NCBI GenBank assembly: GCA_949285735.1
Contig: CASEAQ010000011.1
Coordinates: 1-58,747, forward strand
From: an uncultured Bacteroidales bacterium
GTDB lineage: Bacteria > Bacteroidota > Bacteroidia > Bacteroidales > Muribaculaceae
Direction: 5' to 3'
DNA: 58,747 bases
Under the pieces are notes generated by a model that made no database searches, was not told the origin of the DNA, and worked only from the letters and a program-made list of their open reading frames with translations. Position 1 is the first letter of the stretch. Every line of letters starts with the position of its first letter. Both the position numbers and the translations under genes were made by a program. Of the stretch, positions 29,778 to 45,564 are shown one piece after another.

Positions 29778-29808
29778 CAAAAGTAGTGCAAATCGAGTGC
29801 AGAACAAA
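29778..29808 (-). promoter_or_regulatory. promoter within repeat array A, for the DUF6377 gene
   Basis: On the minus strand -33 TTTG (29805-29808), 19 bases, -7 TACTTTTG (29778-29785), matching the Bacteroidetes consensus exactly. The spacer contains CTGCACT and TTGCACT 11 bases apart. The gene starts about 78 bases downstream of the expected transcript start. Confidence 0.75.
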
Positions 29809-30027
29809 ACAAACTTGTTCGTTTTTTTATGCCGAGATGCAGCCTACCTTATAAAAAGGTAGTGCAAATCGAGTGCAGAACAAAACAAACTTATTTGTTT
29901 TTATTGCCTAAACGAAGCCTACCTTATCAAAAGGTAGTGCAAATCGAGTGCAGAAGAAACAAATTCATTTGTTTTTGTTGCCAAGACGCCGCCTATTTTA
30001 TCGAAAGATAGTGCAAATCGAGTGCAA
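29778..30027 (-). repeat. 75-bp promoter-bearing tandem repeat, array A
   Basis: Three full units plus a partial fourth; the landmark GTAGTGC/ATAGTGC occurs at 29783, 29859, 29934 and 30008 (periods 76, 75, 74). Each unit has a dyad around AAACAAA...TTTGTTT, the TTTG...TGCACT...TTGCACTA promoter region, and a hairpin over the -7 box (CTACCTT with AAGGTAG). Distal copies have -7 TACCTTTT, TACCTTTT and TATCTTTC instead of TAnnTTTG. Spurious short reading frames in it are not genes. Confidence 0.9.
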
Positions 30028-30034
30028 TGAAGCT

Positions 30035-30066
30035 GTGCCATAATTGAAAATACATTTATTTGTTGT
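30035..30066. repeat. dispersed 32-bp repeat, second copy
   Basis: CATAATTG, AAATAC and TTTATTTGTTGTAGA match 3327-3358 with about three differences. Here it is not followed by the palindrome present at 3352-3383. The remaining bases up to the terminator at 30110 show nothing else. Confidence 0.65.
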
Positions 30067-30109
30067 AGATACTTTATCCCAAACAACCCATATTCTTTAC
30101 TGAATATTT

Positions 30110-30159
30110 AGGAATTAACAGAAACAGGGTCGCACTCCATGCGAGGAATGCGACCCTGT
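30110..30159 (-). terminator. intrinsic terminator of the hutHI transcript
   Basis: Arms ACAGGGTCGCACTCC (30124-30138) and its near-complement ending CGACCCTGT (30159) form a long stem. On the minus strand TTTCTGTTAATTCC follows. It lies 26 bases after the hutI stop. Confidence 0.8.
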
Positions 30160-30184
30160 AAATATCTGCCACAGAGGGGCAATA

Positions 30185-31423
30185 TCATTCAACCCGAAAT
30201 CCTCCAATGTATGCCTTGCCCACGATGGGGGTCGTGTAGGCATAGGGGATAAAGTCAACCGACGGTATCGGTCGGGCTGTGATGTAGAAATTGGCTTGCT
30301 TGCCCACGGCAATCGAACCGTGGTTGTGGCTCTGCCCCATTGCACAAGCGGCGTTGAGCGTCGCGGCATTGATTGCCTCGGCTGGCAGAAGCCGCATCTT
30401 GATGCAGGCAAGCGACACGGCAAACTTCATGTCGCCCGACGGCGTTGACCCCGGATTGTAGTCGCTGGCTATTGCAACGCCACACCCGGCATCAATCATC
30501 TTGCGCAATGGCGCATAAGGCATATTCAGGAAAAACGACGTGCCCGGCAGACCCGTGGGAATTGTTGCCGACTGGCGCAGCATCTCAATTTCGGCATCGG
30601 TGATGCGCTCAAGGTGATCGACCGACAACGCCCCGTGGTCAATCGCCACCTTCACGCCGCCCGACGCAGCAAGCTCGTCGGCATGGATTTTGGGCTTCAT
30701 ACCCCACTTCGCCCCGGCTTCGAGTATTCGTGCCGTCTCGTCGGGAGTAAAGAATCCTTCGTCACAAAACACATCGATATACTCGGCAAGCTGCTCACGC
30801 CCCACTTCGGGTATCATTTCGTTAATCAGCAGTTCGATATATTGGGGCTTGGTATAATTGCGCCCCACGGCATGTGCCCCGAGGAAGGTTGCCGACACGT
30901 GCATCGGCACGCTCTCCTTTATGCGCCTCACCACTCGCAGCATCTTCAGCTCGTCGGCAGTGTTAAGCCCATATCCGCTCTTTATTTCCACACATCCTGT
31001 GCCCTTTGCCATCACCTCGCGCACACGCACCATCGACTGCTCAAGCAGTTCGTCCTCGCTAAGCGTGTGCAGCAAGTCGGCAGAGTTGAGTATGCCGCCA
31101 CCACGGCGGGCAATCTCGGCATAGCTCAACCCTCGTATCTTATCGACAAACTCGCCCTCGCGACTGCCGGCATACACAATGTGGGTGTGAGGGTCGCACC
31201 ACGACGGCAGCACCATGCATCCACGGGCATCAACCTCCTCGTCGGCATTGACACCCTCGGCTGGCAACTCCTCCATCTTGCCAAATGCAGCCACCTTGCC
31301 GTCTTCGACAAGCAAATAGGCATCGTCGATTGTATCGAGGCGAGCCATCTCTTCGCCCTGCAACCGCTGCTTGCGCTGGCAGTCACACACAAGTGTCGCT
31401 ATGTTTGTTACAATCAGTCGCAT
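30185..31423 (-). CDS. hutI: imidazolonepropionase
   Basis: A 412-residue amidohydrolase that opens the ring of imidazolone-propionate to N-formimino-L-glutamate, step 3 of histidine breakdown. The metal motif DPHTHIVYAGSREGEF is present, then RGGGILNS and GTGCVEIKSGYGL. Further motifs are IHADELAASGG, VDHLERI and ASDYNPGSTPSGDMKF, all characteristic of HutI. Its start overlaps the end of hutH by 10 bases, so the two are co-transcribed and probably translationally coupled. A terminator follows at 30124. Confidence 0.95.
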   Translation of the reverse strand: MRLIVTNIATLVCDCQRKQRLQGEEMARLDTIDDAYLLVEDGKVAAFGKMEELPAEGVNADEEVDARGCMVLPSWCDPHTHIVYAGSREGEFVDKIRGLSYAEIARRGGGILNSADLLHTLSEDELLEQSMVRVREVMAKGTGCVEIKSGYGLNTADELKMLRVVRRIKESVPMHVSATFLGAHAVGRNYTKPQYIELLINEMIPEVGREQLAEYIDVFCDEGFFTPDETARILEAGAKWGMKPKIHADELAASGGVKVAIDHGALSVDHLERITDAEIEMLRQSATIPTGLPGTSFFLNMPYAPLRKMIDAGCGVAIASDYNPGSTPSGDMKFAVSLACIKMRLLPAEAINAATLNAACAMGQSHNHGSIAVGKQANFYITARPIPSVDFIPYAYTTPIVGKAYIGGFRVE

Positions 31424-32913
31424 ACGCCGCCAAAATCATTTTGTTGCAAGAACTCGATTGAATGTCGTATGTGTGGGTACATCACCTCGTCGTTGACGAT
31501 GAATGGCACCACCTTGCGGTAATCGTCATATATTGCCTCGATGGGTTTCGATGACCTGAGCGGACGGCGGAATTCGAGTGCCTGTGCAGCATTAAACAGC
31601 TCAATGGCAAGTACACGCTGGGTGTTCAGAATCACCTTGTATAGCTTGATGGCGGCGTTGGCACCCATGCTCACGTGGTCTTCCTGCCCCTGGCTCGAAG
31701 GGATGCTATCCACCGACGACGGTGTACACAAGCTCTTGTTCAGGCTCACTATCGATGCCGCCGTATATTGCGTAATCATGAATCCGCTGTTCACACCCGG
31801 GTTGGCAACAAGGAAGCTCGGCAATCCGCGAGTGCCCGACACGAGTTTATAGATGCGACGCTCCGATATGTTGGCAAGTTCGCTCATGGCAATGGCAAGG
31901 AAATCCATCGGCAAGGCTATCGGCTCGCCGTGGAAGTTGCCGGCTGAGATTATCAGGTCGTCGTCGGGGCACACCGTCGGATTGTCGGTTGCCGAGTTTA
32001 TCTCGGTATCGATAACCGACTTCACATATCCCAACGTATCCTTGGCTGCACCATGCACCTGCGGAATGCAACGGAACGAATAGGGGTCTTGCACATACGA
32101 CTTTGGGGTGTCAACAATGCCGCTCCCTGCCAACAGCTGTCTGATGGTGGCGGCAGTCTGTATCTGCCCCGAGTGTGGGCGCACCTGGTGTACGGCATCG
32201 GTGAACGGTTCGACAAGCCCGCAATATGCGTCGAGCGACATAGCCGCAATTGCATCGGCTTGGCGGCACAGGCGTTGCCCTGCCAGCAAAGCCCACACGG
32301 CAAACGCGCTCATGTTTTGTGTTCCGTTAAGCAGCGCAAGCCCTTCCTTCGATGCAAGCTGTATTGGCTTCCACCCGTTGCGGCGCAACATGTCGGCACC
32401 GCTCATCACCTTGCCACGGAACTCCACTTCGCCAAGCCCCACGAGCGGCAGCGTCAGGTGGGCAAGCGGAACCAAGTCGCCCGATGCTCCCAACGACCCT
32501 TGCATATACACCACGGGGTAAACATCGTTGTTGAAGAAGTCAACGAGCCGCTCCACGGTGTCGAGCTTGCAGCCCGAATAGCCATAACTCAACGACTGCA
32601 CCTTCAGCAGCAGCATTATTTTCACAATCTCGTTTGGCACACGGTCGCCAGTGCCGCAAGCGTGCGACATCATCAAGTTGATTTGCAACTGGGCAAGGTG
32701 GTCGCCGCCAATCGACACGTTGCACAACGAACCAAACCCCGTCGTCACCCCATAGATGGGTGCCCGATTTTCGGCAATCTTCCTGTCGAGATATTCACGA
32801 CACTTCACGATGCGGTTGCGCGCGTCGTCGCTAAGTTCTATTTTATAACCCTTGTCGATAATCTCCCCAATGCGTTCTATGGTGAGATGTTCAGCCGATA
32901 TTTTATGTACCAT
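31414..32913 (-). CDS. hutH: histidine ammonia-lyase
   Basis: A 499-residue enzyme converting histidine to urocanate and ammonia. The prosthetic MIO group forms from Ala-Ser-Gly in GSLGASGDLVPLAHL (about residues 142-144). Other family marks are YGVTTGFGSLCN at the N-terminus, LLNGTQNMSAF, RPHSGQI, QDPYSFRCIPQVHG and DNPTVCPDDD. It is a cytoplasmic tetramer in characterised members. It is separated from the Fic gene by 183 bases containing a -7 box, so hutH and hutI probably form their own transcript. Confidence 0.96.
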   Translation of the reverse strand: MVHKISAEHLTIERIGEIIDKGYKIELSDDARNRIVKCREYLDRKIAENRAPIYGVTTGFGSLCNVSIGGDHLAQLQINLMMSHACGTGDRVPNEIVKIMLLLKVQSLSYGYSGCKLDTVERLVDFFNNDVYPVVYMQGSLGASGDLVPLAHLTLPLVGLGEVEFRGKVMSGADMLRRNGWKPIQLASKEGLALLNGTQNMSAFAVWALLAGQRLCRQADAIAAMSLDAYCGLVEPFTDAVHQVRPHSGQIQTAATIRQLLAGSGIVDTPKSYVQDPYSFRCIPQVHGAAKDTLGYVKSVIDTEINSATDNPTVCPDDDLIISAGNFHGEPIALPMDFLAIAMSELANISERRIYKLVSGTRGLPSFLVANPGVNSGFMITQYTAASIVSLNKSLCTPSSVDSIPSSQGQEDHVSMGANAAIKLYKVILNTQRVLAIELFNAAQALEFRRPLRSSKPIEAIYDDYRKVVPFIVNDEVMYPHIRHSIEFLQQNDFGGVCD

Positions 32914-32993
32914 AACTTATTAATAATTTATTGACCATGCTAATCGGAGAGGGCAATAACAACACACAGTGTCACCACCATCAGCCCATAATG

Positions 32994-33001
32994 CAAATGT
33001 A
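32994..33001 (-). promoter_or_regulatory. -7 box upstream of hutH
   Basis: TACATTTG on the minus strand about 80 bases before the hutH start. The same octamer precedes ftsY and rimO. No ideal -33 box is seen. Confidence 0.4.
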
Positions 33002-33096
33002 GCGATTTTATTCCGAAATAATACCAATTATGCAAAATGATGCACCCACATTTCACACTTCCAATAACGAAGGCGATGAAACCGTCCTAAAGGGCA

Positions 33097-34110
33097 TTAA
33101 CATGGCGGTTCGGCATCTTCGAGGGGCGAAACTATCTCCCAATATCCACCTCTTGCCCCACCTATGCGATTGATAATTCCCTTGCTTCGCAACTGCCTTA
33201 TTATCTTCTTCACTCCGCTTTCCGACAAGCCTATAAACTCTTGCAACTCTCGAATCGACACGCGTGGATTAAGCCGCATGGCTTCAAGAATTTTCTGGTT
33301 ACTTTTCTGGTTACTTTTCTGGTTACTGCTTTGCACCTCCTGTAATGCCGACAACAAGCAACGAAGCATGAACACAACAAACGATGTGCTTGCTCCTTCT
33401 CTGTCGCTCTGCGCAATAGCCGCGTAATATTTCTGTTGGTTTTCTTTGACAATCGTTTCCACCGGTATCCAAGCAAATACCGTGTTCCATTGCATCAGCA
33501 GCAATGTTTGCCACATACGCCCCATGCGCCCGTTTCCATCGGCAAACGGGTGGATAAACTCAAGCTCGTAATGAAACACGCAACTGCTGATGAGCGGATG
33601 CACTTTTGTATTCTTCACCCACTGCAGCAACTCGCGCATCAATGCCGGCACTCGCGTAGCCGGAGGGGCAAAGTGTATGCACTTGTTTCCTTCAAATACT
33701 CCGACACCTCCACGTCTGTAACACCCATTCTCGGCAGTCAGGTCTGCCATCATAAGGCGATGCGTCCTCAACAGGTCGGCTTCGCTGCAAGGGTCTAAGT
33801 CAAAAAGTAAATCGTATGCGTCAATGGCATTTTTCACCTCCCTGATTTCGACAGGCGGACCAAGCACGCGTTTCCCATCGAGAATGTCGGTCACTTGCTC
33901 TATCGAGAGTGTATTATTTTCAATCGCCAACGATGAATGAATCGTCTTGATGCGATTTTGCTTGCGCAGCGTAGGAGTGGGCACACCGTGCCCACTCGCA
34001 GAGATGCGCCCCACCGACTCGGCGATTTCAATCACGAGATTGGTCATCTCGTCGGTCACCGTGAACGGTGGCGTGTATGTTGTAGTGGTGACTGCTGCCA
34101 TCACTGCCAA
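33097..34110 (-). CDS. Fic-family protein with C-terminal winged helix
   Basis: A 337-residue protein. The N-terminal inhibitory helix carries SLAIEN, the (S/T)xxxE(G/N) motif that blocks AMP transfer in class II Fic proteins. The Fic motif is HPFADGNGRMGR near residue 187, with the catalytic His, so it should be an AMP-transferase under self-inhibition. After a Ser-Asn-Gln-Lys repeat linker comes a winged helix (NPRVSIRELQEFIGLSESGV...IIRQLRSKGII) that probably binds DNA. It starts two bases after the hutU stop and so shares the ftcD-hutU transcript, an unexpected partner for histidine degradation. A start at the second Met (34101) is also possible. Confidence 0.9.
   Translation of the reverse strand: MAVMAAVTTTTYTPPFTVTDEMTNLVIEIAESVGRISASGHGVPTPTLRKQNRIKTIHSSLAIENNTLSIEQVTDILDGKRVLGPPVEIREVKNAIDAYDLLFDLDPCSEADLLRTHRLMMADLTAENGCYRRGGVGVFEGNKCIHFAPPATRVPALMRELLQWVKNTKVHPLISSCVFHYELEFIHPFADGNGRMGRMWQTLLLMQWNTVFAWIPVETIVKENQQKYYAAIAQSDREGASTSFVVFMLRCLLSALQEVQSSNQKSNQKSNQKILEAMRLNPRVSIRELQEFIGLSESGVKKIIRQLRSKGIINRIGGARGGYWEIVSPLEDAEPPC
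33291..33326 (-). repeat. three perfect 12-bp repeats inside the Fic gene
   Basis: TTTTCTGGTTAC on + three times without mismatch, encoding Ser-Asn-Gln-Lys units in the linker between the Fic domain and the winged helix. Twelve bases keep the frame, so copy-number change would only alter linker length. Confidence 0.85.
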
Positions 34111-34112
34111 TT

Positions 34113-36128
34113 TTAAAGACTACTGTCCAAGATGCTGTCGTCAACGAGGTTGGGCATGGTCACTTTCAGTTCGGGGCATTGTTCCATGGCTCGCTCGATG
34201 CTGCGCATCGACCCTCCATTGCGCGCCCAGCTGCGACGAGCTATACCGTTGTTGACATCCCAGAAGAGCATTTCGCGTATGTGACGCTCGCTGTCGGCTG
34301 AGCCGTCGATCACCATGCCGAAACCGCCATTTATCACTTCGCCCCAGCCTACGCCGCCACCATTGTGCAACGACACCCATGTGGCACCGCGGAACGAGTC
34401 GCCAATGACATTCTGCACAGCCATATCGGCACAAAATTGCGAACCATCGTATATATTGCTCGTCTCGCGGAAAGGCGAGTCGGTGCCCGACACGTCGTGA
34501 TGGTCACGCCCAAGCACCACGGGCGCAGTGAGTTCACCGCTGGCGATGGCACGGTTGAAGGCAAGGGCAATCTTGGTACGTCCTTCGGCATCGGCATAAA
34601 GAATGCGCGCCTGCGACCCCACGACAAGGTGGTTGCGCCCAGCCTCGCGTATCCAGTGTATGTTGTCGTCGAGCTGCCCCTTTATCTCGTCGGGCGCAGT
34701 GGCTCGAATCTCTTCAAGCACCTCGGTAGCGAGGCGGTCGGTCAAGGCAAGGTCGTCGGGGTTGCCCGATGTGCACACCCAGCGGAACGGACCGAAGCCA
34801 TAGTCGAAGAACATTGGACCCATAATATCCTGCACATACGACGGATAACGGAAACGTCCGTCGGCTGCCATGATTTCGGCACCGGCACGTTGCGATTGCA
34901 ACAAGAATGCGTTGCCATAGTCGAAGAAATACATTCCACGGCTGGCAAGGCGGTTGATGGCTGCCACCTGGCGGCGCAACGATGCCTGCACCATCTCCCT
35001 GAACTTTGCCGGGTCGTCAGCCATCATGCGTTTCGACTCCTCAAAGGTTAATCCCACAGGGTAGTATCCACCTGCCCAAGGATTGTGGAGCGAAGTCTGG
35101 TCACTGCCGAGGTCAACATGAATATCCTCGTCGGCAAGGCGTTCCCACAGGTCAACCACATTGCCCACGTATGCCATCGACACCGTGCGACGCTCAGCCA
35201 CAGCACTCTTCACGGCAGGTATCAACTCGTCGAGGTCGCTGTGCAGCTCGTCAACCCACCCCTGGTCGTAACGCTTCTGCGCCGCCTGCGGGTTGATTTC
35301 AGCTACCACGCTCACCACCCCGGCTATATTGCCAGCCTTGGGTTGTGCGCCCGACATTCCGCCAAGCCCCGACGACACGAACAGCATTCCATGCTGGTCG
35401 TTGCGCCCAGGATAGTCGGCAAGTTTCTTGCGGGCGGCATTGAGCACCGTGATTGTGGTGCCATGCACGATGCCTTGCGGGCCTATGTACATATACGACC
35501 CGGCAGTCATCTGCCCATACTGGCTCACGCCGAGCGCGTTCAGGCGTTCCCAGTCGTCGGGCTTCGAATAATTGGGAATCACCATGCCGTTGGTGACAAC
35601 CACACGCGGCACATTCTTGTGCGACGGGAATAGCCCGAGCGGATGCCCCGAATACATCACAAGCGTCTGCTCGTCGGTCATCTCGCTCAAGTATTTCATC
35701 GTCAACAGGTATTGCGCCCAGTTTTGGAACGCCGCCCCGTTGCCGCCATACACAATCAATTCGTGCGGGTGCTGCGCCACGGCAGGGTTCAAGTTGTTCT
35801 GTATCATCAGCATGATGGCAGCCGCCTGACGGCTACGGTGTGGGTACTCGTCGATAGGACGGGCATACATCTCGTAGCGCGGACGGAAACGATACATATA
35901 TATGCGGCCATACTTGGCAAGCTCCTCGGCAAACTCCGGTGCAAGCGTGGCATGGAACTTTGCCGGGAAGTAGCGCAAGGCGTTGCGCAAGGCGAGCCGC
36001 TTCTCCTCGGCGGTGAGTATCTCTTTGCGGCGGGGAGCGTGGTTCACGCTCTCGTCATAGGGCTGCGGTTGCGGCAGTTCATCGGGAATGCCGGCACATA
36101 TCTGTCGTGCAAATTCTTCTTGGGTCAT
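34113..36128 (-). CDS. hutU: urocanate hydratase
   Basis: A 671-residue enzyme converting urocanate to imidazolone-propionate with tightly bound NAD. The dinucleotide-binding stretch is LFVSSGLGGMSGAQPKAG. Further marks are LIVYGGNGAAFQNWAQY, MYSGHPLGLFPSH, GDSFRGATWVSLHNGGGVGW and the C-terminal GGSMRSIERAM. It is longer at the N-terminus than the roughly 550-residue proteobacterial enzymes, matching the long urocanase form found in Bacteroidetes. It lies 11 bases after ftcD and 2 bases before the Fic gene. Confidence 0.95.
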   Translation of the reverse strand: MTQEEFARQICAGIPDELPQPQPYDESVNHAPRRKEILTAEEKRLALRNALRYFPAKFHATLAPEFAEELAKYGRIYMYRFRPRYEMYARPIDEYPHRSRQAAAIMLMIQNNLNPAVAQHPHELIVYGGNGAAFQNWAQYLLTMKYLSEMTDEQTLVMYSGHPLGLFPSHKNVPRVVVTNGMVIPNYSKPDDWERLNALGVSQYGQMTAGSYMYIGPQGIVHGTTITVLNAARKKLADYPGRNDQHGMLFVSSGLGGMSGAQPKAGNIAGVVSVVAEINPQAAQKRYDQGWVDELHSDLDELIPAVKSAVAERRTVSMAYVGNVVDLWERLADEDIHVDLGSDQTSLHNPWAGGYYPVGLTFEESKRMMADDPAKFREMVQASLRRQVAAINRLASRGMYFFDYGNAFLLQSQRAGAEIMAADGRFRYPSYVQDIMGPMFFDYGFGPFRWVCTSGNPDDLALTDRLATEVLEEIRATAPDEIKGQLDDNIHWIREAGRNHLVVGSQARILYADAEGRTKIALAFNRAIASGELTAPVVLGRDHHDVSGTDSPFRETSNIYDGSQFCADMAVQNVIGDSFRGATWVSLHNGGGVGWGEVINGGFGMVIDGSADSERHIREMLFWDVNNGIARRSWARNGGSMRSIERAMEQCPELKVTMPNLVDDSILDSSL

Positions 36129-36139
36129 ATCTTAGTTTC

Positions 36140-37843: not shown

Positions 37844-37864
37844 AGCCTATATGAAGTTTTTATT

Positions 37865-37895
37865 CAAAGATAGTGCAAGTTGAGTGCAATACAAA
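37865..37895 (-). promoter_or_regulatory. promoter within repeat array B, for ftcD-hutU-fic
   Basis: On the minus strand -33 TTTG (37892-37895), 19 bases, -7 TATCTTTG (37865-37872). The spacer contains TTGCACT twice, 11 bases apart. The ftcD ATG lies about 15 bases beyond the expected transcript start. Confidence 0.8.
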
Positions 37896-38114
37896 ACAAA
37901 TTCATTTGTTTTTATTCCCGAGACGCCGCCTGTCTTATCGAAAGATAGTGCAAGTTGAGTGCAATACAAAACAAATTCATTTGTTTTTATTGCCGAGACG
38001 CCGCCTATTTTATCGAAAGATAGTGCAAGTTGAGTGCAATACAAAACAAATTCATTTGTTTTTATTCCCGAGACGCCGCCTGTCTTATCGAAAGATAGTG
38101 CAAGTTGAGTGCAA
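37865..38114 (-). repeat. 75-bp promoter-bearing tandem repeat, array B
   Basis: Landmark GATAGTGC at 37869, 37944, 38019 and 38094, an exact 75-base period. Three full units and a partial fourth are nearly identical, so the expansion is recent. Distal copies all carry -7 TATCTTTC. Each unit has a perfect AAACAAAT-TC-ATTTGTTT dyad and a dyad over the -7 box (CTATTTT or CTGTCTT with AAGATAG). The remaining gap to 38188 is AT-rich and featureless. Confidence 0.92.
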
Positions 38115-38187
38115 AAGCAAAAAATAGCTCGCTAATTTTTCGCTTTGCCCACGGTTCTTTCATTTAAAATGTGATAACGGTATGCCA

Positions 38188-38330
38188 CGAAATACGGGGG
38201 CGGCGGAGCCGTCCAACTGTGCCTTAACCGCGGGTGACGCAGCCCAACGTAGTGGGCAAGGAACCTGCGGACACCACTGGCCTCCCCCTGTCCAGGACCT
38301 CGAAGAGGTCCAACGTAGCTATGCTGCCAT
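38188..38330. repeat. dispersed non-coding element, copy 2
   Basis: Matches 27831-27965: head CGAAATAC...GGCGGAGCCGTCCAACT, then AACGTAGTGGGC, ACCTGCGGACACCACT and CCTCCCCCTG, and the hairpin GACCTC-GAA-GAGGTC followed by CAACGTAGC. It provides the 3' part of the small reading frame at 38224-38469. Confidence 0.6.
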
Positions 38331-38469
38331 TCTTGCGTGAAAGAACAACACACATATCCACACCATGATACTTATGCACTACCAAAGTACCATATTGAGG
38401 GTGTTGCAAAACCTCTTTACGGCGCGCATATACACCCCAGCAGCACACCCCAAAAGCAGCCTTAGTCAT
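38224..38469 (-). CDS. small hypothetical protein, C-terminus formed by a dispersed repeat
   Basis: An 81-residue reading frame starting MTKAAFGVCCWGVYARRKEV and overlapping the end of the upstream membrane-protein gene by 8 bases, as coupled genes do. Residues from about 47 on (LFEVLDRGRPVVSAG...) are encoded by the dispersed element at 38188-38330, so the original 3' end may have been replaced. I do not recognise a family. It may not be expressed. Confidence 0.3.
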   Translation of the reverse strand: MTKAAFGVCCWGVYARRKEVLQHPQYGTLVVHKYHGVDMCVVLSRKNGSIATLDLFEVLDRGRPVVSAGSLPTTLGCVTRG

Positions 38470-39118
38470 ATCTATTTCCCTTGCCTATGACGAACAAGAT
38501 AATAATCATCAAAATCGGTGAGGCTATAATACTCAAAAGCACCCACACGGCAGCACTCCTATTCCGCTCTTTTGCCATCACTGCAACACAGACATACAAT
38601 CCCACCCATGCCAAAGCAACGAACACCAATATCACAAGCATTATCAATGCAGCACCTTTACCTGAAGAATGAGAAAACGGAGATACTCCATTATTGTCGT
38701 TCGGCACACTCTCCATCACCTCCTCAAAGTTATAATCTTTAAGTTCAAACTCTATCTTGAATCTTTTACCTGAAGCACCCAATGCCTCTTCCGATTTATA
38801 ATACGAATAACACCTATCATATTCATAAGCAGGAATGTCAATCTTCTTTGTCTTACCCGGCGCAATGTTAACGCTCCTCCAAAATTCCTCATAGTCGAGT
38901 TGCGTACCCGACATATCGGTATATACTATCATGAAATGCAGATTGTGGATTTCTTCATCGGTATTGTTCTTTAAAGCCAAAGTTCCTTCACTGTCCGACC
39001 AACTTTGCTCATAAGAAACCATCGTCACTGCATCAGCCACACCATTCTTTTCGGCTGCGGCACAAAACAACACACAAACCAATCCCATCAAAAACAAGGT
39101 CACTCTCTTCATTTCCAT
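38462..39118 (-). CDS. membrane protein of unknown function, extracytoplasmic beta domain plus C-terminal helices
   Basis: A 218-residue protein starting MEMKRVTLFLMGLVCVLFCA, a signal peptide; MKRV (39112) and an upstream ATG at 39139 are alternatives. The extracytoplasmic part (VSYEQSWSDSEGTLALKNNT...VYTDMSGTQLDYEEFWRS) looks like a small immunoglobulin-like beta domain. It is followed by two transmembrane helices (ALIMLVILVFVALAWVGLYV and VWVLLSIIASPILMIIILFV) joined by a short basic loop (AKERNRS). No family recognised. It is the first gene of a possible two-gene unit with 38224. Confidence 0.6.
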   Translation of the reverse strand: MEMKRVTLFLMGLVCVLFCAAAEKNGVADAVTMVSYEQSWSDSEGTLALKNNTDEEIHNLHFMIVYTDMSGTQLDYEEFWRSVNIAPGKTKKIDIPAYEYDRCYSYYKSEEALGASGKRFKIEFELKDYNFEEVMESVPNDNNGVSPFSHSSGKGAALIMLVILVFVALAWVGLYVCVAVMAKERNRSAAVWVLLSIIASPILMIIILFVIGKGNRYD

Positions 39119-39337
39119 AGCAATTAACATTAAATCCAATCAACACAAAATTACAAAAAAACTACACAACCCGGCAAGATTCCACGTCTCAAAAAACGCA
39201 GTCATAAACAACTGGCAGTAAACATCTCACAATCAGTTGCCCTGCAACTTTTTTCCACATTTTCACCCACCATTTTGCAACTTTTTGCAACGACAGCACA
39301 TTTCTCCCCCCACAATCATCTACACCCAATATGCTAA

Positions 39338-41908
39338 TCATCTGCCGAGGGGGAGCGAGACTGAGACGCAGGTTGTGTGGTAGTCGATGCCGTGCCACGA
39401 GGTGAACACGCCCACCGATGCCATGTCGAAGATGTTGACCGAGTAGCCGAGTTCGCTGTATGGGCGACGATGGTGCGTCACTGCCGAGCGCAGGTGCAGG
39501 CACTCCGAGAAATTCTTGTCGCGCAAGAAGGGCAACTGCTTCAATATCATGCGCGGCGACTGCCACGTCACGCCTGCCTCGGCATAACGGCTGTCGGTGG
39601 AATAGGCATAATTGTCGAGCAAGACAAAGCTGTCGGTGAAGCGGCGGGCAGTCAACGGGAAGCGTGTCGCCGAAAAGTGCTTGAAGTCGGGGAATTGCAG
39701 CCTCGATGCTCCAAAGAACATTCCACCCCGCACCTGGTATATAATCTTGTTGAAAATGCCCAACTCCACCTCCTGCTCTATGCTCAAGTCGAGGCGATTA
39801 TATGCCGGCGCGGCATCGTTGAAGCCGAAACCGCGCACGTAGGTCAACTCAAACGTAGGGAAACGCGAGCGCAGATAACGCTTGCGCCCGTCAATCACAT
39901 AATAATAGGCAGCGGGGATGTAAGAAATGGTTGCCGCGGCAGTCAACGCATCATTCACTGCCGGCAGTGCCGCAAACATCTCGTTGCGCGGCACATTGGG
40001 CGACGCATCTTTCTTAAACCAGCTGTGGGCTACATGATTGTCGAGCGGACGGCGGCGTTCCCACGTGCCACCGATGGCAAACCGTGTGCCATTGGCAATC
40101 TCAATGTCGTTCTTCACCGACACAAACGCACGATCGTACAGCTTCACATCGTTTCGCCCGAACAGTGCCGTCTGTATGGCGACAACGCCAGCCGCCTCGG
40201 GACTTTCGCCATTGTAGTCGGCAGAAACTCGTCCACCCGACACAGACAGCCGTCCACGGCGCAACAGCGCATAGCTGAGTGTTGCTTCGACCTGCCCCGT
40301 GACACGCTTGCGAGCAGTGTTGTAATATGCCGATGGCTTAACCCGTATCGACAGCGCATCGCTGAAGTCATACCCGGCACTGAACCCCAGTCCTACTTTG
40401 TAGCCATCAACGAAATTAAAACCCGAAATAATCGAAGTCAGCCCGCCGAGCCTAATCCATGCCTTGTCGTTCTCAAGCAGTGCGCTATTCCCCGTGAACA
40501 AGGCATCGCCGATAATATCGGAAATATCCTCATCTTCGGCAGCCGTCGTCGCTGCAGTGTCGCCACGATGCCGGCGATAGCTTTCAAGCTCCTCGTCGTC
40601 GAGCGGCACACTGCGCACGCCAGCCCAATAAGCCGAGTCACGCCGTGCAGCGGCACTGTCGGTAGTGATGCTCCTGCTACCAAGGCGATAGGTGAGGTCG
40701 TACTTCGACCTCCGTTTTATCTTTCCTTGCGTGGCAAGGTTCTCTTCCATCAATTGCGCCGTCAATGCAGCCAGTCGGTAGGCATCACTCTTCGACAACT
40801 CCCCTTTTTGCTCCACCTCGCCTATTTCGTCCATCAGGCGGTTACCGCGCTCCGACAATCCCACGATTTCGCCCCTCGGCTGACTCTCGATGTGGGAATA
40901 TTGCACCGAAGTGGTGTAAGAAGCCGTGACACCTATCCCAAGCACACCTATGCGGCACCTCAGCACCTGAGAAACAGGCAGGAACAAACTGGGCGACACC
41001 TCTTGGAAATTAGCCACCAAATGGGCATCATACAGTGCTGCCGACACCTCAAGGTCGGCAGCAGCAAGGCACCATTCCCCGTCAATCACATATATGCAGC
41101 CCCTGAAAAGTCCTTTGGCATCTCGCCGCGGCATAACGCTTATCTTGCTTATGCTCCGCCCATTCTCTTCATAATGGTCGTCGAGCTTATATTTATAATA
41201 GGTGAACGCACCTTCCCTCAATGGCGATGGCGAGCCAAATAGTTCCTTGGCGTAGAAATTGGCAATCATGGTGGGAATCTCGGCTGAAACTTCGCTCGGA
41301 AATGTGTTGCTTTCTGCCTCAACATGTTCAACCCAACTATTAGGCGCACCAAATTCCACGTTGCTCACCTTTTCAAGCACGAAAAGTCGATTCACCACGT
41401 TGTCTTTCTCCTTCCTGAAATCGGCTGACAAATTGAAAACTCCAGGCGTGTCGGTTATCTTCCCCGACCCCTTCACATACACCTTGGCAGCGAAGCTGTC
41501 GGGGCGGCATTCATAATAGGGCGCACGGGCAATTACATGGCGCATGATGCCATAGGCAGGATCTTCGCTACCGTCTGCCACCACCTGCACTTCGTCAAGG
41601 GCAATGGGCCTCATTTCGAGCGTGAAGTGACACTCGGTCTCTTCGCCCGCGACATCTACCTGCGTCTCGAGGCTCTTGTAGCCCAACGAAGTGACGCGGC
41701 AACAATAATTGCCTGTCGGCAATTCCAGTTGGAAACGCCCGTCAGCATCAGTCGAAATGCCGCGATGCAATTCATCAAGATAAACGGCGGCATACGGTAT
41801 GGCATTGCCGTCAACATCGGTAACAGTTCCTCGCAACATCTGCGCCGAAACTGCGAATGACACCACCACGCACACCAATGCAAGCCACAACCTCATCACC
41901 ATCATCAT
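39338..41908 (-). CDS. DUF5686-type outer-membrane protein with carboxypeptidase-like N-terminal domain
   Basis: An 856-residue protein with a signal peptide (MRLWLALVCVVVSFAVSAQ). A carboxypeptidase-regulatory-like domain follows (LRGTVTDVDGNAIPYAAVYL...DADGRFQLELPTGNY), then a central region with RHVIARAPYYECRPDSFAAK and KVYVKGSGKI. A long C-terminal barrel (SIRVKPSAYYNTARKRVTG, LTYVRGFGF) ends in FTSWHGIDYHTTCVSVSLPLGR. This matches DUF5686 proteins, TonB-receptor relatives without a plug. Its start overlaps the stop of the muramidase gene by four bases (ATGA at 41905-41908), so they are coupled. Function unknown. Confidence 0.82.
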   Translation of the reverse strand: MMMVMRLWLALVCVVVSFAVSAQMLRGTVTDVDGNAIPYAAVYLDELHRGISTDADGRFQLELPTGNYCCRVTSLGYKSLETQVDVAGEETECHFTLEMRPIALDEVQVVADGSEDPAYGIMRHVIARAPYYECRPDSFAAKVYVKGSGKITDTPGVFNLSADFRKEKDNVVNRLFVLEKVSNVEFGAPNSWVEHVEAESNTFPSEVSAEIPTMIANFYAKELFGSPSPLREGAFTYYKYKLDDHYEENGRSISKISVMPRRDAKGLFRGCIYVIDGEWCLAAADLEVSAALYDAHLVANFQEVSPSLFLPVSQVLRCRIGVLGIGVTASYTTSVQYSHIESQPRGEIVGLSERGNRLMDEIGEVEQKGELSKSDAYRLAALTAQLMEENLATQGKIKRRSKYDLTYRLGSRSITTDSAAARRDSAYWAGVRSVPLDDEELESYRRHRGDTAATTAAEDEDISDIIGDALFTGNSALLENDKAWIRLGGLTSIISGFNFVDGYKVGLGFSAGYDFSDALSIRVKPSAYYNTARKRVTGQVEATLSYALLRRGRLSVSGGRVSADYNGESPEAAGVVAIQTALFGRNDVKLYDRAFVSVKNDIEIANGTRFAIGGTWERRRPLDNHVAHSWFKKDASPNVPRNEMFAALPAVNDALTAAATISYIPAAYYYVIDGRKRYLRSRFPTFELTYVRGFGFNDAAPAYNRLDLSIEQEVELGIFNKIIYQVRGGMFFGASRLQFPDFKHFSATRFPLTARRFTDSFVLLDNYAYSTDSRYAEAGVTWQSPRMILKQLPFLRDKNFSECLHLRSAVTHHRRPYSELGYSVNIFDMASVGVFTSWHGIDYHTTCVSVSLPLGR

Positions 41909-42645
41909 TTCCCCTTTCTATAATAATTATAAGCCCGTTCGAGCCTCGTGTGATAGCCGCTGCGTGCATATCCCTCACCATTATAGGCACGGGCAAAACG
42001 AGCCCAATCCTTGGCTTTCAAATATTTGTCCAGTCCGGCATTCTTTATGTAATTGGCAAACAGGCGGTGCTGCATCGCCGTGGAAGTGCTCATCTTCTCG
42101 ACAAAGTCGTCAACCGAGCTCGCGCCACATAACGCCCAGTTGCTGCCACGTATCTGGTACATTCCCCAGTAAGTACACAACTTGGCTATGCTGTCGTTTA
42201 TCGCCGAGGCGGCACGGTACATGGCACGCTGAGCCAGCAACGGGTCGGCATATCGGCTGCGACTGGGGCGGCTGAAGGCATCGGGCACAGCCTTGGCAAG
42301 CGAATCGACATCATATCCGGCGCGGTTCAACTGCTCTCTGAACATCGACACTTCGAGGTTCACCACTGGCGACCCGGCAGAGATAAACGCCGTGTGACTC
42401 CGACCCGACTCGATGCTACTCACCGCCCTCATTGCCGCCACCTCTACGCCAAGCTCGGCGGCGAGGCTGTCGTATATCGAGCGCGGCGAAACATCTGGCA
42501 CGGCAAGCACCACGGGATAACGCCACACGGTGTCGATTGGCTCATAGCCCTGCCCCTCGGCAACGCCGCCACTCCGGCACGTGCACAAGCCCAACACGGC
42601 AAGTACCACGGCAACAACGACAATCGAAATGATAAACTCCTTCAT
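41905..42645 (-). CDS. N-acetylmuramidase-like protein (DUF3380 type), membrane-anchored
   Basis: A 246-residue protein from MKEFIISIVVVAVVLAVLGL, an N-terminal membrane anchor or signal with a nearby Cys (LCTC). The catalytic part fits the DUF3380 (PF11860) muramidase pattern: AAMRAVSSIESGRSH with the probable acidic residue, VVNLEVSMFREQLNRAG, YWGMYQIRGSNWALCG, and the end KDWARFARAYNGEGYARSGYHTRLERAY. It is expected to cleave peptidoglycan glycan strands in the periplasm. Phage endolysins share this fold, but nothing else here is phage-like. Coupling to the DUF5686 barrel suggests a joint envelope role, for example opening the wall for an outer-membrane assembly. Confidence 0.75.
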   Translation of the reverse strand: MKEFIISIVVVAVVLAVLGLCTCRSGGVAEGQGYEPIDTVWRYPVVLAVPDVSPRSIYDSLAAELGVEVAAMRAVSSIESGRSHTAFISAGSPVVNLEVSMFREQLNRAGYDVDSLAKAVPDAFSRPSRSRYADPLLAQRAMYRAASAINDSIAKLCTYWGMYQIRGSNWALCGASSVDDFVEKMSTSTAMQHRLFANYIKNAGLDKYLKAKDWARFARAYNGEGYARSGYHTRLERAYNYYRKGK

Positions 42646-42682
42646 GGCTGTAACATTTGAAATCAACAATTTGTCGCCAATT

Positions 42683-42728
42683 ACAAAACGGGGGCATTGC
42701 TTCCCCTTTTACAAGAAACAGTGCCCCG
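42683..42728 (-). terminator. intrinsic terminator after pepD
   Basis: GGGGCATTG (42691-42699) pairs with CAGTGCCCC (42719-42727), and on the minus strand CGTTTTGTAATT follows. It lies 29 bases after the pepD stop. Confidence 0.6.
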
Positions 42729-42755
42729 CTATAATCAACTATGAACAATATGCGC

Positions 42756-44216
42756 CTATTCTCCCTTTGCCACCATTTCAAGAATCTTGGTCAAATAGCT
42801 CCAGAACTTGTCAACGGCAGGAATGTGCATGGCTTCCTTGGGCGAATGCACGTCGCGCAACGTCGGACCAAACGAAATCATGTCGAGATGCGGATAATTG
42901 GTCAAGAACAAGCCACATTCAAGCCCGGCATGGATTGCCGTGGCACGCGGTGTTTCGTTAAAAAGCGTCTCATAGGCAGTAGTAGCCACTTGCAATATCT
43001 TCGAGTCGATGTTTGGTGCCCACCCCGGGTAGCCGTCACCATGCGAAACAGTGGCACCTGCGAGTTGGAACACAGCTTCAACCTGATGTGCAATATCAAT
43101 CTTGCGACTCTCGACCGAGCTGCGCTGCGAAGTAGTGACGAGTATCTCGTTGTCTGGCATCATCTTCACCGAGGCAAGGTTGGTAGAAGTTTCCACAAGC
43201 CCAGGAATGTCGTGGCTCATCGACACCACACCATGAGGTGCGCAATAAAGCGCGCAAATCAATGCCTTTGCCGTCTCGGCATCGATGCAATGCTCGGGCA
43301 CTTCGGTGCTCTCGATGGTTATAACCATGTCTTTCTCGATATGCTTGTATTCATTCTCGATGTCGGCTATATACTGGTTGAGCCTTACGCTAAGCTGCTC
43401 CTTGTGGTCACAGTGTATGCCCACAACGGCATGAGCCTCACGGGCGATGGCATTGCGCAAGTTGCCGCCATTGATCGACGAGAGCGAAATTCCATAGTCT
43501 TGCGACAAATCCCACAAGAAACGGGCAAGCAATTTATTGGCGCAAGCACGACCAGTGTTGATGTCTGTTCCAGAGTGTCCGCCCTGCAATCCCGAGATGT
43601 TGATTTTGAAATACAAGAACTTTTCGGGAGCAAGCGACTGCTTATACTTGAATGTCACCGTCGTGTCGATACCGCCGGCGCAGCCTATGCATATCTCGCC
43701 ATCCTCTTCCGAGTCCAAGTTGAGCAAAATGTCGCCCTCAATCATTCCCTCACCAAGGTTGTTGGCTCCAGTCAACCCGGTTTCCTCGTCAACTGTAAAC
43801 AATGCCTCGATAGGCCCGTGCACCAAGTCGTTGCTAACCAGCACTGCAAGCGATGCAGCCATGCCGATGCCGTTGTCGGCACCGAGCGTTGTACCCTTGG
43901 CTCGAACCCATTCGCCGTCGATATAAGTTTCAATCGGGTCGTTCTCAAAATCATGCACAACATCGTTGTTCTTCTCACACACCATGTCCATGTGGCCCTG
44001 CAGCACCACGCGCTTGGCATTCTCGTAGCCCGGAGTTGCCGGCTTGAACATTGCCACGTTGCCTATCTCGTCGGTCTTGTAGGCAATGCCATGCTCTTTT
44101 GCGAAGTTCACAAGGAACTCATGTATTTTGCCCTCCTTCTTCGACGGACGCGGCACTTTGGTAATCTGGTCAAATATGCTCCAAATGAGCGTCGGTTTCA
44201 ATTCTGCGATATTCAT
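42756..44216 (-). CDS. pepD: aminoacyl-histidine dipeptidase (M20 family)
   Basis: A 486-residue zinc peptidase that cleaves Xaa-His dipeptides such as carnosine. The motifs are VVLQGHMDMVCE (first zinc ligands, with HxD), GTTLGADNGIGMA (bridging Asp), FTVDEETGLTGA (catalytic Glu and ligand) and IGCAGGIDTTV. It continues with the large lid domain and ends with a His ligand in the GPTLRDVHSPKEAMHIP segment. The fit to PepD is full length. It is cytoplasmic and would supply free histidine for the hut genes 5-10 kb away, though it is not in their operon. The 44217-44533 gap upstream is AT-rich with no gene that I can see. Confidence 0.93.
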   Translation of the reverse strand: MNIAELKPTLIWSIFDQITKVPRPSKKEGKIHEFLVNFAKEHGIAYKTDEIGNVAMFKPATPGYENAKRVVLQGHMDMVCEKNNDVVHDFENDPIETYIDGEWVRAKGTTLGADNGIGMAASLAVLVSNDLVHGPIEALFTVDEETGLTGANNLGEGMIEGDILLNLDSEEDGEICIGCAGGIDTTVTFKYKQSLAPEKFLYFKINISGLQGGHSGTDINTGRACANKLLARFLWDLSQDYGISLSSINGGNLRNAIAREAHAVVGIHCDHKEQLSVRLNQYIADIENEYKHIEKDMVITIESTEVPEHCIDAETAKALICALYCAPHGVVSMSHDIPGLVETSTNLASVKMMPDNEILVTTSQRSSVESRKIDIAHQVEAVFQLAGATVSHGDGYPGWAPNIDSKILQVATTAYETLFNETPRATAIHAGLECGLFLTNYPHLDMISFGPTLRDVHSPKEAMHIPAVDKFWSYLTKILEMVAKGE

Positions 44217-44533
44217 ATCTTTTATTATAAAACAAGTCTAATTTAAAACAATGTTAAAATCATCGTTTTTTCGTTGACTAAATTACAAAAAATATATTGA
44301 AAACAACATAGCTCAACCATTTTTAATTCCAAAACACCCCCACCTACCTCAATTCAACCTCTACGACAACCTACGAGCCTCATTGAATATTTGCCTATTA
44401 GCAAGATTTATAAACTCAAAATTTCAACGCTCTGCTATCCAAAACAATGCATCCAATGGTTAATACGCATTCGACAAACGTAGTCCGCTTGTTGCCTGTC
44501 GCCAAACAACATAAGGAGAGTATTTTATCCTGC

Positions 44534-45106
44534 TTAATGGAGTTCTGGGTTGCTGAACGATTCGAGCAGCATTTTTGCCTCCCAATAGTCAATCTCCATT
44601 TTCATGGAATCTTGCTCTTGGGAAGTGTATGTAGAATCTGTTTCCCAATCGTGGAAAAGCGAATCGATGGTATCAATTTTCTCCTTACAGAGTTGTCGAA
44701 AAATTGTCGGTATGTCGGAATTTCGCTCACGAGGAATGCTAATTTGAAAATTGCCACTCTCAATCCTTTGGTTCACTTGTGGGCTCGAAACAATCGAATC
44801 ATTAAATACAAAAGCAATATGCTTTCCCACAGCTCGTTCCGTAGCATCTGCCCACTCCTGTTGTTTATGCTTGCTCACTACCCCCGTAATGACATACACA
44901 CCTGACGTATCTGAATCCAAGCGTACCTCGGCAAATTCTTTAACAGTAACAATCGGCTCGCGCGACAAGCTGTCCTGGTTTTCACCAAGCACATAATACC
45001 AGCCATTTTCACGGTGAACAGCTTGCGGCTGGCTTTGTGAACACGCCACAAGGAAACAAAACATTACCCCAATACCCAAAAGGTTGCTTACTATTTTCAT
45101 ACCCAC
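44534..45106 (-). CDS. lipoprotein with SecD P1-head-like domain
   Basis: A 190-residue protein with a lipoprotein signal (LLGIGVMFCFLVACSQSQ); MKIVS two codons later is an alternative start. YYVLGENQD and ITGVVSKHKQQEWADAT lead into GKHIAFVFNDSIVSSPQVNQ and RIESGNFQIS. This block parallels the SecD/SecDF P1 head ('G..lAivldg.v.saP.v...I..G...I'). The C-terminal part is a charged helix, possibly a coiled coil. It is not SecD itself, since it has no transporter helices. Role unknown. It is divergent from the small-membrane-protein/ompH genes, with repeat array C between them. Confidence 0.65.
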   Translation of the reverse strand: MGMKIVSNLLGIGVMFCFLVACSQSQPQAVHRENGWYYVLGENQDSLSREPIVTVKEFAEVRLDSDTSGVYVITGVVSKHKQQEWADATERAVGKHIAFVFNDSIVSSPQVNQRIESGNFQISIPRERNSDIPTIFRQLCKEKIDTIDSLFHDWETDSTYTSQEQDSMKMEIDYWEAKMLLESFSNPELH

Positions 45107-45202
45107 ACAATTAAAAGATTAATATACATCAACAACACGACATCAAATATAGCGAAAATCACCTTCACGATCAAATTTTAGACAAGACATATTGCCATTT
45201 GA

Positions 45203-45236
45203 GCCGTAAAGGCGAGATGAATCGCATCTCTACGGC
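45203..45236. repeat. palindromic element, GTAGAG family, with outer stem
   Basis: Outer arms GCCGTA and TACGGC and inner arms GAGATG and CATCTC make a hairpin; the core GATGAATCGCATCTCTAC is a diverged inverted copy of the element at 1316. It abuts repeat array C. Confidence 0.6.
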
Positions 45237-45242
45237 CATGTT

Positions 45243-45384
45243 AGGCGGCGCCTTGGCAACAAAAACAAATGAATTTGTTTTGTATTGCGCTCGACTTGCA
45301 CTATCTTTCGATAAGACAGGCGGCGCCTCGGCAACAAAAACAAATGAATTTGTTTTGTATTGCGCTCGACTTGCACTATCTTTG
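45243..45384 (+). repeat. 75-bp promoter-bearing tandem repeat, array C
   Basis: Two units, landmark CTATCTTT at 45301 and 45376 (period 75), in the orientation reading toward the plus-strand genes. The distal copy has -7 TATCTTTC, the proximal copy TATCTTTG. The spacer reads TTGCGCT then TTGCACT, 11 bases apart. The AACAAAT-GA-ATTTGTT dyad is perfect. Confidence 0.9.
45354..45384 (+). promoter_or_regulatory. promoter within repeat array C, for the small membrane protein and ompH
   Basis: -33 TTTG (45354-45357), 19 bases, -7 TATCTTTG (45377-45384). The GTG start at 45406 lies about 15 bases beyond the expected transcript start. Confidence 0.8.
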
Positions 45385-45405
45385 CAAGCAAAAATTTGAG
45401 GTAAA

Positions 45406-45564
45406 GTGAAATTAGTCTTGATTTCGATAGTGTTGGTGGGCATCTGCGTCCTGCTTTTGGGCGTGAGGGTATTCTTTGTGAAAGGGGGAAAGTTCCCCAA
45501 TACCCACATACATGGCAACCGCGCCCTAAGAGATAAAGGCATCACTTGCGCCAGTGAAGAATGA
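45406..45564 (+). CDS. small conserved membrane protein (52 residues)
   Basis: Start GTG at 45406; a stop at 45397 in the same frame excludes an earlier start. A single hydrophobic helix (LVLISIVLVGICVLLLGVRV) is followed by the segment GKFPNTHIHGNRALRDKGI and a TCASEE end. I recognise this as a widespread Bacteroidetes small-protein pattern (FPNTHI.GN..LR..GI.CA) without known function. The stop overlaps the start of the OmpH gene (ATGA at 45561-45564), so the two are coupled. The promoter is the proximal unit of repeat array C. Confidence 0.75.
   Translation: MKLVLISIVLVGICVLLLGVRVFFVKGGKFPNTHIHGNRALRDKGITCASEE

Follow-up and report, generated by a model that had tools for sequence, protein, structure and literature searches.

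Promoter-bound inverted repeats of the Bacteroidales: a dispersed element family with probable tandem growth and copying from one promoter to another

Three tandem arrays of a ~75-bp repeat, here called A, B and C, lie in a 58,747-nt stretch from an uncultured Muribaculaceae bacterium (contig CASEAQ010000011.1, positions 1 to 58,747; hereafter the window) and are members of a large family of promoter elements present in dozens of copies per genome. The element is best explained, with somewhat better than even confidence, as a promoter-bound, hairpin-forming repeat, REPIN- or MITE-like in form, whose units multiply in tandem and are copied from promoter to promoter.

Tandem Repeats Finder placed A at 29778-30026, B at 37866-38122 and C at 45243-45383, with consensus periods of 74, 75 and 75, respectively. 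The earlier note had claimed one repeat unit for all three, and array B used as a query matched A (E 2.4e-62) and C (E 2.5e-56), far above chance. Array A (29778..30003, minus strand) consists of three full units (29778-29854, 29854-29929 and 29929-30003) with the promoter directed towards a DUF6377 gene, and a degenerate outermost copy lies upstream of it (30003..30098, minus strand; weak match, E 0.083). Array B (37865..38090, minus strand) likewise has three full units (37865-37940, 37940-38015 and 38015-38090), directed towards ftcD, with a degenerate outermost copy upstream whose central stem is of a different subtype (38090..38168, minus strand; E 2.8e-4). Array C (45234..45384, plus strand) has two units (45234-45309 and 45309-45384), directed towards a short frame and ompH. 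The short frame, of 52 codons with a GTG start (45406..45564, plus strand), lies between the array and ompH; similar frames were seen by eye at the ompH promoter of other genomes shown. Pfam bore out the assignment of the downstream genes as DUF6377 (A), FTCD (B) and, behind the short frame, OmpH (C).

The pattern TTTG-N19-TAnnTTTG was read in the gene-proximal unit of each array, as had been reported. The -7 box is TACTTTTG in A (29778..29785, minus strand) and TATCTTTG in B (37865..37872, minus strand) and C (45377..45384, plus strand); the -33 TTTG stands across an N19 spacer at 29805..29808 (A, minus strand), 37892..37895 (B, minus strand) and 45354..45357 (C, plus strand). The final G is absent from the -7 box of all seven distal units, which read TATCTTTC, TACCTTTT and TACCTTTT in A, TATCTTTC three times in B and TATCTTTC once in C. 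The copies of array B are near-identical (95% matches), again as described before.

Beyond the three arrays, the unit was found at 46 further places in the examined stretches of the same genome. BLAST gave 34 places in this genome and a model search 63 matches at E<=0.1; the model search gave 94 in genome G001 and 87 in G008, and in a sample of the family the element was present in 65 of 198 genomes. Pfam scans, which took in 30 of the 47 downstream frames of the window's own genome, returned mixed housekeeping functions, among them ArgS, PheS alpha, PriA, PFK, DapB, FtcD and sulfatases. This dispersed family, the inverted repeat with co-varying arms and the replacement of the central stem between species had been overlooked in the earlier note. 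An origin from phages or other viruses was rejected on the basis of a strict pattern that had no match in viral contigs, although the pattern was insensitive, since it matched only two stretches in genome contigs.

Family members sit at promoters. Across four genomes of the genus, an ATG opening a frame of 80 codons or more lay downstream of 151 of the 153 arrays with a readable box, at a median distance of 31 nt; it was within 100 nt in 134/151 arrays, compared with 35/136 on the divergent side. The reading of the arrays as promoter cassettes, which a family without any link to gene starts would have contradicted, was thereby upheld, and no array was found directed away from its own gene. The boxes are those of Sigma-ABfr type promoters (-33 TTTG and -7 TAnnTTTG, PMC7366714): the -7 box ended in G in 150/153 readable proximal units, and the -33 TTTG occurred at N17-22 in 130/152 proximal and 67/82 distal units, the proximal spacing being mostly N19 (73) or N20 (54). 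A few boxes were read by a relaxed pattern, and three proximal and three distal units without a readable box were set aside. The right arm is not simply the general promoter of the organism with a left arm added by chance, since the extended right-arm pattern occurred at just five sites in the window, three of which are the arrays.

The rule that only the gene-proximal box keeps its final G was confirmed within the genus (G in 150/153 proximal and 11/85 distal units), which bears out this part of the earlier reading in part. In two other lineages the rule fails: by eye, distal boxes had the final G in 9/11 cases in G488 and 4/7 in G429, and in 0/5 in G405. G488 and G429 contradict a universal rule of selection for that G, and the pattern is closer to an inherited junction sequence than to any overall requirement that distal copies be silenced. 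Such selection is possible within this genus.

Each unit is a single long imperfect inverted repeat. Both the -33 TTTG and the -7 box lie in the right arm, which is about 27 nt long (...CTCGNCTTGCACTANNTTTG). The left arm (AANNTAGGCNGCGNCTCGGCA) precedes the core promoter and mirrors the right arm, except at two conserved internal loops that do not pair, and between the arms lies a palindromic stem in several recurring subtypes. Because the unit is nearly its own mirror image, a single strand could fold into a hairpin. The unit ends, AANNTAG...CTANNTT, co-vary as terminal inverted repeats, as in MITEs.

Pairing of the arms is well supported by double-sided changes, which were found at 10/15 pairs in alignment A1, 9/15 in A3 and 10/15 in A4, with shuffles and slid controls well below these values. 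A1 comprised 58 units; partial and a few irregular units were excluded from it, as were those of L038, L040, L052, L060 and L061. A4 was drawn from five genomes of other families. The copies of G417 (L332-L337), which are embedded in a longer conserved repeat, were omitted from the covariation test. Of the 40 double changes between homologous promoters, spread over 22 of 62 locus pairs and 12 promoter groups, 37 preserved the pair, against 0-2 in the six slid controls. Pairing is tolerant, as single changes that make or break a pair (60) outnumber the double changes (40), and several of the latter reflect wholesale replacement of the element rather than step-by-step compensation (e.g. L214/L278 and L265/L251). 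Folding z-scores below -2 were obtained for 86/164 full units versus 23/158 upstream controls. The palindrome score of the centre, too blunt a measure, was weak (9.2 of 14 pairs versus 7.5 in shuffled sequences; at least 11 in 40/234 units).

Related genomes differ in unit number and in stem subtype. Between matching flanks, locus L222 of G001 has two units and L272 of G004 has one, in agreement with the proposed growth of arrays by whole units, and L277/L237 gave a second such difference. Several discrete stem subtypes are each found at many loci of one genome; they recur and switch between species, and homologous promoters often carry different subtypes. The stem was replaced while the 27-nt arm was kept in L292 and L267 versus L247 and in L216 versus L246 (arm identity 1.00, core 0.12-0.39); at strict thresholds, a swapped centre with kept arms was present in just 4/62 locus pairs. 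A closer match within the same genome was obtained in 59/86 pairs, a figure biased upward because one homologue was set against the best of many loci. Centres were extracted for 200 of 244 units, 4 of 93 arrays had no sequence stretch, and 34 of 40 loci were taken in from one further locus set. Among the loci fetched, neither a target-site duplication nor a clean empty site retaining both flanks was found; nearly all of these loci were chosen for carrying the element and so do not make a fair test.

Comparison with known systems places the element near several of them. Integron attC sites act as single strands folded into a hairpin, whose ends are conserved and which has internal loops and a stem free in sequence, and mobile promoters are promoter copies before unrelated genes; the element resembles both, although membership of either class is not claimed. 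The invertible promoters of Bacteroides combine a promoter with inverted repeats that flank a flippable segment. The element shares this combination, but its symmetry lies inside the promoter and a second orientation was not found (in 151/153 arrays with a readable box, a gene start lay on the side to which the promoter points). REPINs are marked by GTAG or CGTC at one end; the consensus unit here has GATAAGATAGG and CTATCTTTG as its ends, and in one subfamily CGTC occurs within the left arm. As with REPINs and REP-BIMEs, the element is a short, dispersed, extragenic inverted repeat with a predicted hairpin, forming tandem clusters of alternating orientation with conserved ends and a variable middle. 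In PMC3116915, REPINs are described as short dispersed extragenic inverted repeats with predicted hairpins that are randomly distributed in extragenic space. The element departs from this in containing a promoter and in sitting at a gene start and pointing to the gene in all but a few readable-box copies with enough flank, and the excess of nearby ATGs on the downstream side is not that of random placement. A RAYT-driven REPIN was rejected because the distribution of PF01797 does not track the element: the domain was absent from eight element-rich genomes (G001, G002, G004, G005, G006, G012, G048 and G051) and present in G015, G018, G019, G020 and G023, all without a match to the element model, some of these genomes being incomplete. 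With PF01797 as the only enzyme family searched, no transposase or recombinase was linked to the element. The BrickBuilt MITE of Porphyromonas gingivalis, as described in PMC4596501, has 23-nt units between a leader and a tail, lies 49-591 nt from genes and has bidirectional promoter activity. Both are intergenic repeats of Bacteroidales with tandem units of varying number and a link to promoters (by reported activity for BrickBuilt), but the present units are of 69-89 nt (74-75 in the window), show no leader or tail, end exactly at the -7 box and point in one direction. The right arm has both boxes of the Sigma-ABfr promoter at N19-20, as defined in PMC7366714, and to these the element adds a left arm, a palindromic centre and tandem units.

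Under the preferred explanation, replication or negative supercoiling would let a single strand fold into the hairpin, and this folding may expose the site to cutting, slippage and template exchange. Arrays would as a result add or shed whole units, and either the central stem or the entire promoter would be copied from locus to locus, so that the family would behave like a mobile promoter. Both the role of the hairpin and a copying agent are inferred. Only the gene-proximal unit with a complete TAnnTTTG would normally fire, distal units being inert or modulatory. A stronger form, in which this is a new kind of mobile promoter carrying its own mirror image, with the folded DNA hairpin recognised by a putative enzyme, promoters and regulatory stem copied between unrelated genes across a bacterial order and arrays serving as a store of spare units, is speculative and regarded as rather doubtful.

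Much of the same evidence could arise passively, if replication slippage multiplied a promoter palindromic by chance and ectopic gene conversion made its copies uniform; hairpin-templated repair alone would maintain the pairing, and the left arm would have no function. Whole-unit differences and the greatest likeness of units within one array agree with such a history, and repair on a hairpin template would yield double changes; it should, however, erase the two internal loops, yet the loop bases are conserved and unpaired across families, and genomes of other families retain the left-arm motif. This account is thus considered unlikely. Less likely still is a regulatory rather than mobile nature, with the central palindromes as operators for dimeric regulators, one subtype each, arrays as multi-operator promoters and species differences as regulon rewiring. 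Symmetric centres adjoining the -33 box, discrete subtypes each at many loci per genome and a conserved position relative to the promoter would suit operators, but these leave unexplained why the outer arms co-vary when one partner is the -7 box, and neither the mixed housekeeping genes downstream (30/47 scanned) nor the differing subtypes of homologous promoters favour them. Good RNA folding z-scores might point to hairpins acting in the transcript of the upstream gene as a terminator or a processing or stability signal. Among 146 arrays with enough upstream sequence, though, the nearest long upstream frame by a frame heuristic was divergent in 81, co-directional in 62 and absent in 3, Rfam gave no match at the gathering score in the window, and in the proximal unit the downstream transcript is expected to start only after the entire hairpin; such an RNA element was rejected as very improbable.

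If the explanation by a promoter-bound, copied hairpin repeat is true, then in some Bacteroidales of gut and rumen much of the housekeeping promoter set would consist of copies of one exchangeable hairpin element and not of independently evolved sites. Promoter turnover between species could be followed directly in this family, and variation in unit number and assembly breaks before core genes would be explained. For annotation, short frames called within the arrays are not genes. The element also poses the question of how an upstream arm stays complementary to a -7 box when that box has to be read by sigma as well.

Repeat detection on the window placed the three tandem arrays where the earlier note had reported them; the full units span 29778-30003 in array A (minus strand, DUF6377 gene), 37865-38090 in array B (minus strand, ftcD) and 45234-45384 in array C (plus strand, a short frame and ompH). 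A search with array B recovered A (E = 2.4e-62) and C (E = 2.5e-56), confirming one common unit; as had also been claimed, TTTG-N19-TAnnTTTG was found in the gene-proximal unit of all three arrays, and the final G of the -7 box was absent from 7/7 distal units. ORFs of 60-143 codons traverse the arrays (29829-30011, plus; 37873-38127, plus; 37847-38044, minus; 45199-45399, plus; 45171-45602, minus), and genes could be miscalled there. Between array C and ompH lies a frame of 52 codons that begins with GTG (45406-45564), and similar frames precede ompH in the other genomes compared. A second dispersed repeat, G+C-rich (GGCGGCGGAGCCGTCCAAC..., 38130-38340), adjoins array B; stretches like it, some of them short matches, were found at ten other element loci of G000, the genome carrying the window (L183, L177, L014, L176, L013, L015, L016, L029, L011 and L008). 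A REP-like hairpin (GTAAAGGCGAGATGAATCGCATCTCTACGGCC, 45199-45240) lies immediately upstream of array C, with similar sequence in L190 and, on visual inspection, close to L007 and L009. A perfect 12-bp tandem repeat (3.1 copies, 33291-33327) within a long frame encodes QKSN repeats.

The array B search matched 34 places across many contigs of G000 (2.6 Mb, 85 contigs, 79.8% complete). A covariance model (R1) built from 58 units gave 63 matches in G000 at E<=0.1; at E<=0.001 the counts were 94 for G001 and 87 for G008, and at E<=0.0001 they were 40 for G004 and 35 for G006. The element was found in 9/9 genomes of the genus and in 65/198 of the family sample, spread over 17 of 30 genera. In the order sample 26/295 genomes matched at E<=1e-6 (16 families, by our own count of rows), several of them with a single match that may be due to chance, and in the phylum sample the only match among 296 genomes was G000 itself. 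Carriers include the MAG records uncultured Bacteroidales RUG13250 (50 matches) and uncultured Paraprevotella (15 matches). Together with the promoter type and the gene content, these labels suggest a Bacteroidales origin for the window. Four G001 contigs (C11, C12, C18 and C24) have ends that lie within arrays, which makes the repeats a probable cause of assembly breaks. The nearly identical single units L332-L337 of G417 have conserved flanks on both sides and thus belong to a longer repeat in that genome.

The element occupies promoter positions. Stretches around matches were taken from G000, G001, G004 and G006 and units were located by profile HMM, yielding 244 units in 156 arrays (49 in G000, the window's three included); among arrays with a readable box, 88 held one unit, 46 two, 16 three and 3 four. 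Distance to start codons and the terminal base of the -7 box were tabulated as the earlier note had proposed. With the gene start defined as the closest ATG that opens a frame of 80 codons or more, a downstream start was found for 151/153 arrays at a median of 31 nt (<=100 nt in 134), and on the divergent side the median was 240 nt (<=100 nt in 35/136). L233 (G001 C11:78306-78469), with two units, ends in TATCTTTC, is followed by no frame of 80 codons within 1.5 kb downstream and is a rare copy away from this position. The -33 TTTG was present at N17-22 in 130/152 proximal and 67/82 distal units, and the right arm has the boxes of an ordinary promoter of the sigma-ABfr type (PMC7366714). The downstream genes of G000 are unrelated, including arginyl- and phenylalanyl-tRNA synthetase, PriA, phosphofructokinase, DapB, FtcD, UDP-glucose dehydrogenase, sulfatases and a Y1 transposase; of 47 downstream frames, 30 were scanned and 29 had a Pfam family.

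In these four genomes the -7 box ended in G in 150/153 proximal units, the exceptions (one A and two C) including L201 and L293, and in 11/85 distal units (C in 46, T in 25, A in 3), with three further units of each class lacking a readable box. The final-G rule therefore held here but not generally: by eye, distal boxes in genomes of other families ended in G in 9/11 cases in G488, 4/7 in G429 and 0/5 in G405, and the distal junction of G226 was changed in another way. The rule is lineage-specific, and the differences are most simply accounted for by a founder junction inherited along with the unit.

Each unit is an inverted repeat. In aligned units, RNAalifold pairs the left arm (AANNTAGGCNGCGNCTCGGCA) with the right arm (TGCNCTCGNCTTGCACTANNTTTG) over 15 positions, with double-sided changes at 10. 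In alignment A1, 94.2% of cells were paired and both-side changes numbered 76 against 24.0 in shuffles; the covariation score was 0.252 against 0.097 shuffled and at most 0.063 with the partner arm slid. Corresponding values were 93.8% and 57 against 13.3 for A3 (G001, a few units shared with A1), and 95.8% and 67 against 14.2 for A4 (five genomes of other families), both of which lean towards the model because they were fitted to it. Relatedness likewise raises scores of this kind. For most measures the observed value was attained by 0/500 shuffles, and for further pair types by 1/500 in A1 and A4. Single-strand folding with DNA parameters gave z of -2.0 to -4.2 for five units against dinucleotide shuffles; with RNA parameters, 164 full units had a mean z of -2.33 (below -2 in 86) and upstream control segments -0.47 (below -2 in 23/158). 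The internal loops are conserved and remain unpaired, which argues that the folded form is recognised by something.

Promoters were paired through blastn homology of downstream sequence, which falls short of proof of orthology, and 62 pairs with both arms were scored at 15 base-pair positions. There were 797 unchanged positions, 24 single changes keeping and 60 making or breaking a pair, 5 positions where neither promoter had the pair, and 40 double changes. Among the last, 37 kept the pair, against 0-2 after sliding the partner 1-3 columns; they were spread over 22 locus pairs in 12 promoter groups. Some look like true compensation within one stem subtype, for example at the ompH promoter (G-C and G-C in G000, T-A and C-G in G001, G004 and G006) and at the promoter of the FAD-oxidase (L177 versus L209, L260 and L239). 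Other cases reflect replacement of the whole element.

Units and stems turn over. Unit number differed in 48/86 homologous pairs. L277, for instance, has one unit and L237 three, and L222 of G001 and L272 of G004 differ by exactly one unit with matching flanks. In 59/86 pairs the 33-nt core was matched better by another locus of the same genome than by the homologue, a comparison of one homologue with many loci; under strict thresholds on both arms, 4/62 pairs had the core swapped and the arms kept. In clear instances the 27-nt right arm was identical and the core different: in L292 and L267 against L247, and in L216 against L246. Stem subtypes recur with species-typical use by eye, TGAACAAGTTC-type being common in G000 and ATCAGCAAGCTG and TTCATGCAAGCATGA types in G001. 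At ftcD, TTTGAATAAAAAC directly 3' of the -7 box was kept in seven genomes and everything upstream differed: an array in G000, a single unit in G003 and in G007 whose stems differ between the two, and another promoter in G001, G004, G006 and G008; G005 diverged further, and no ftcD match was present in G002.

The unit resembles REPINs in form (PMC3116915) and the BrickBuilt MITE, a tandem Bacteroidales element with promoter activity (PMC4596501), but fails defining features of each. Nothing like it is mentioned in the passages of PMC5771137 and PMC12306157, a literature search returned no description of the element, and one for six motif strings found a single unrelated paper; subscription journals lie mostly outside the coverage, and an earlier description is possible. 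Y1 transposases (PF01797) were absent from eight element-rich genomes and found in five genomes without the element. One such gene lies directly 3' of the element at L176 (G000 C56) and another near an element in G008 (C81:2895-3658).

Promoter position, arm pairing and turnover were shown, and we infer that the hairpin would form in single-stranded DNA and render the site recombinogenic, and that units would duplicate in tandem. Instead or additionally, the hairpin may tune the promoter. Under the recombinogenic reading, stems or entire promoters would be copied from locus to locus, and promoters would thereby be exchanged among genes.
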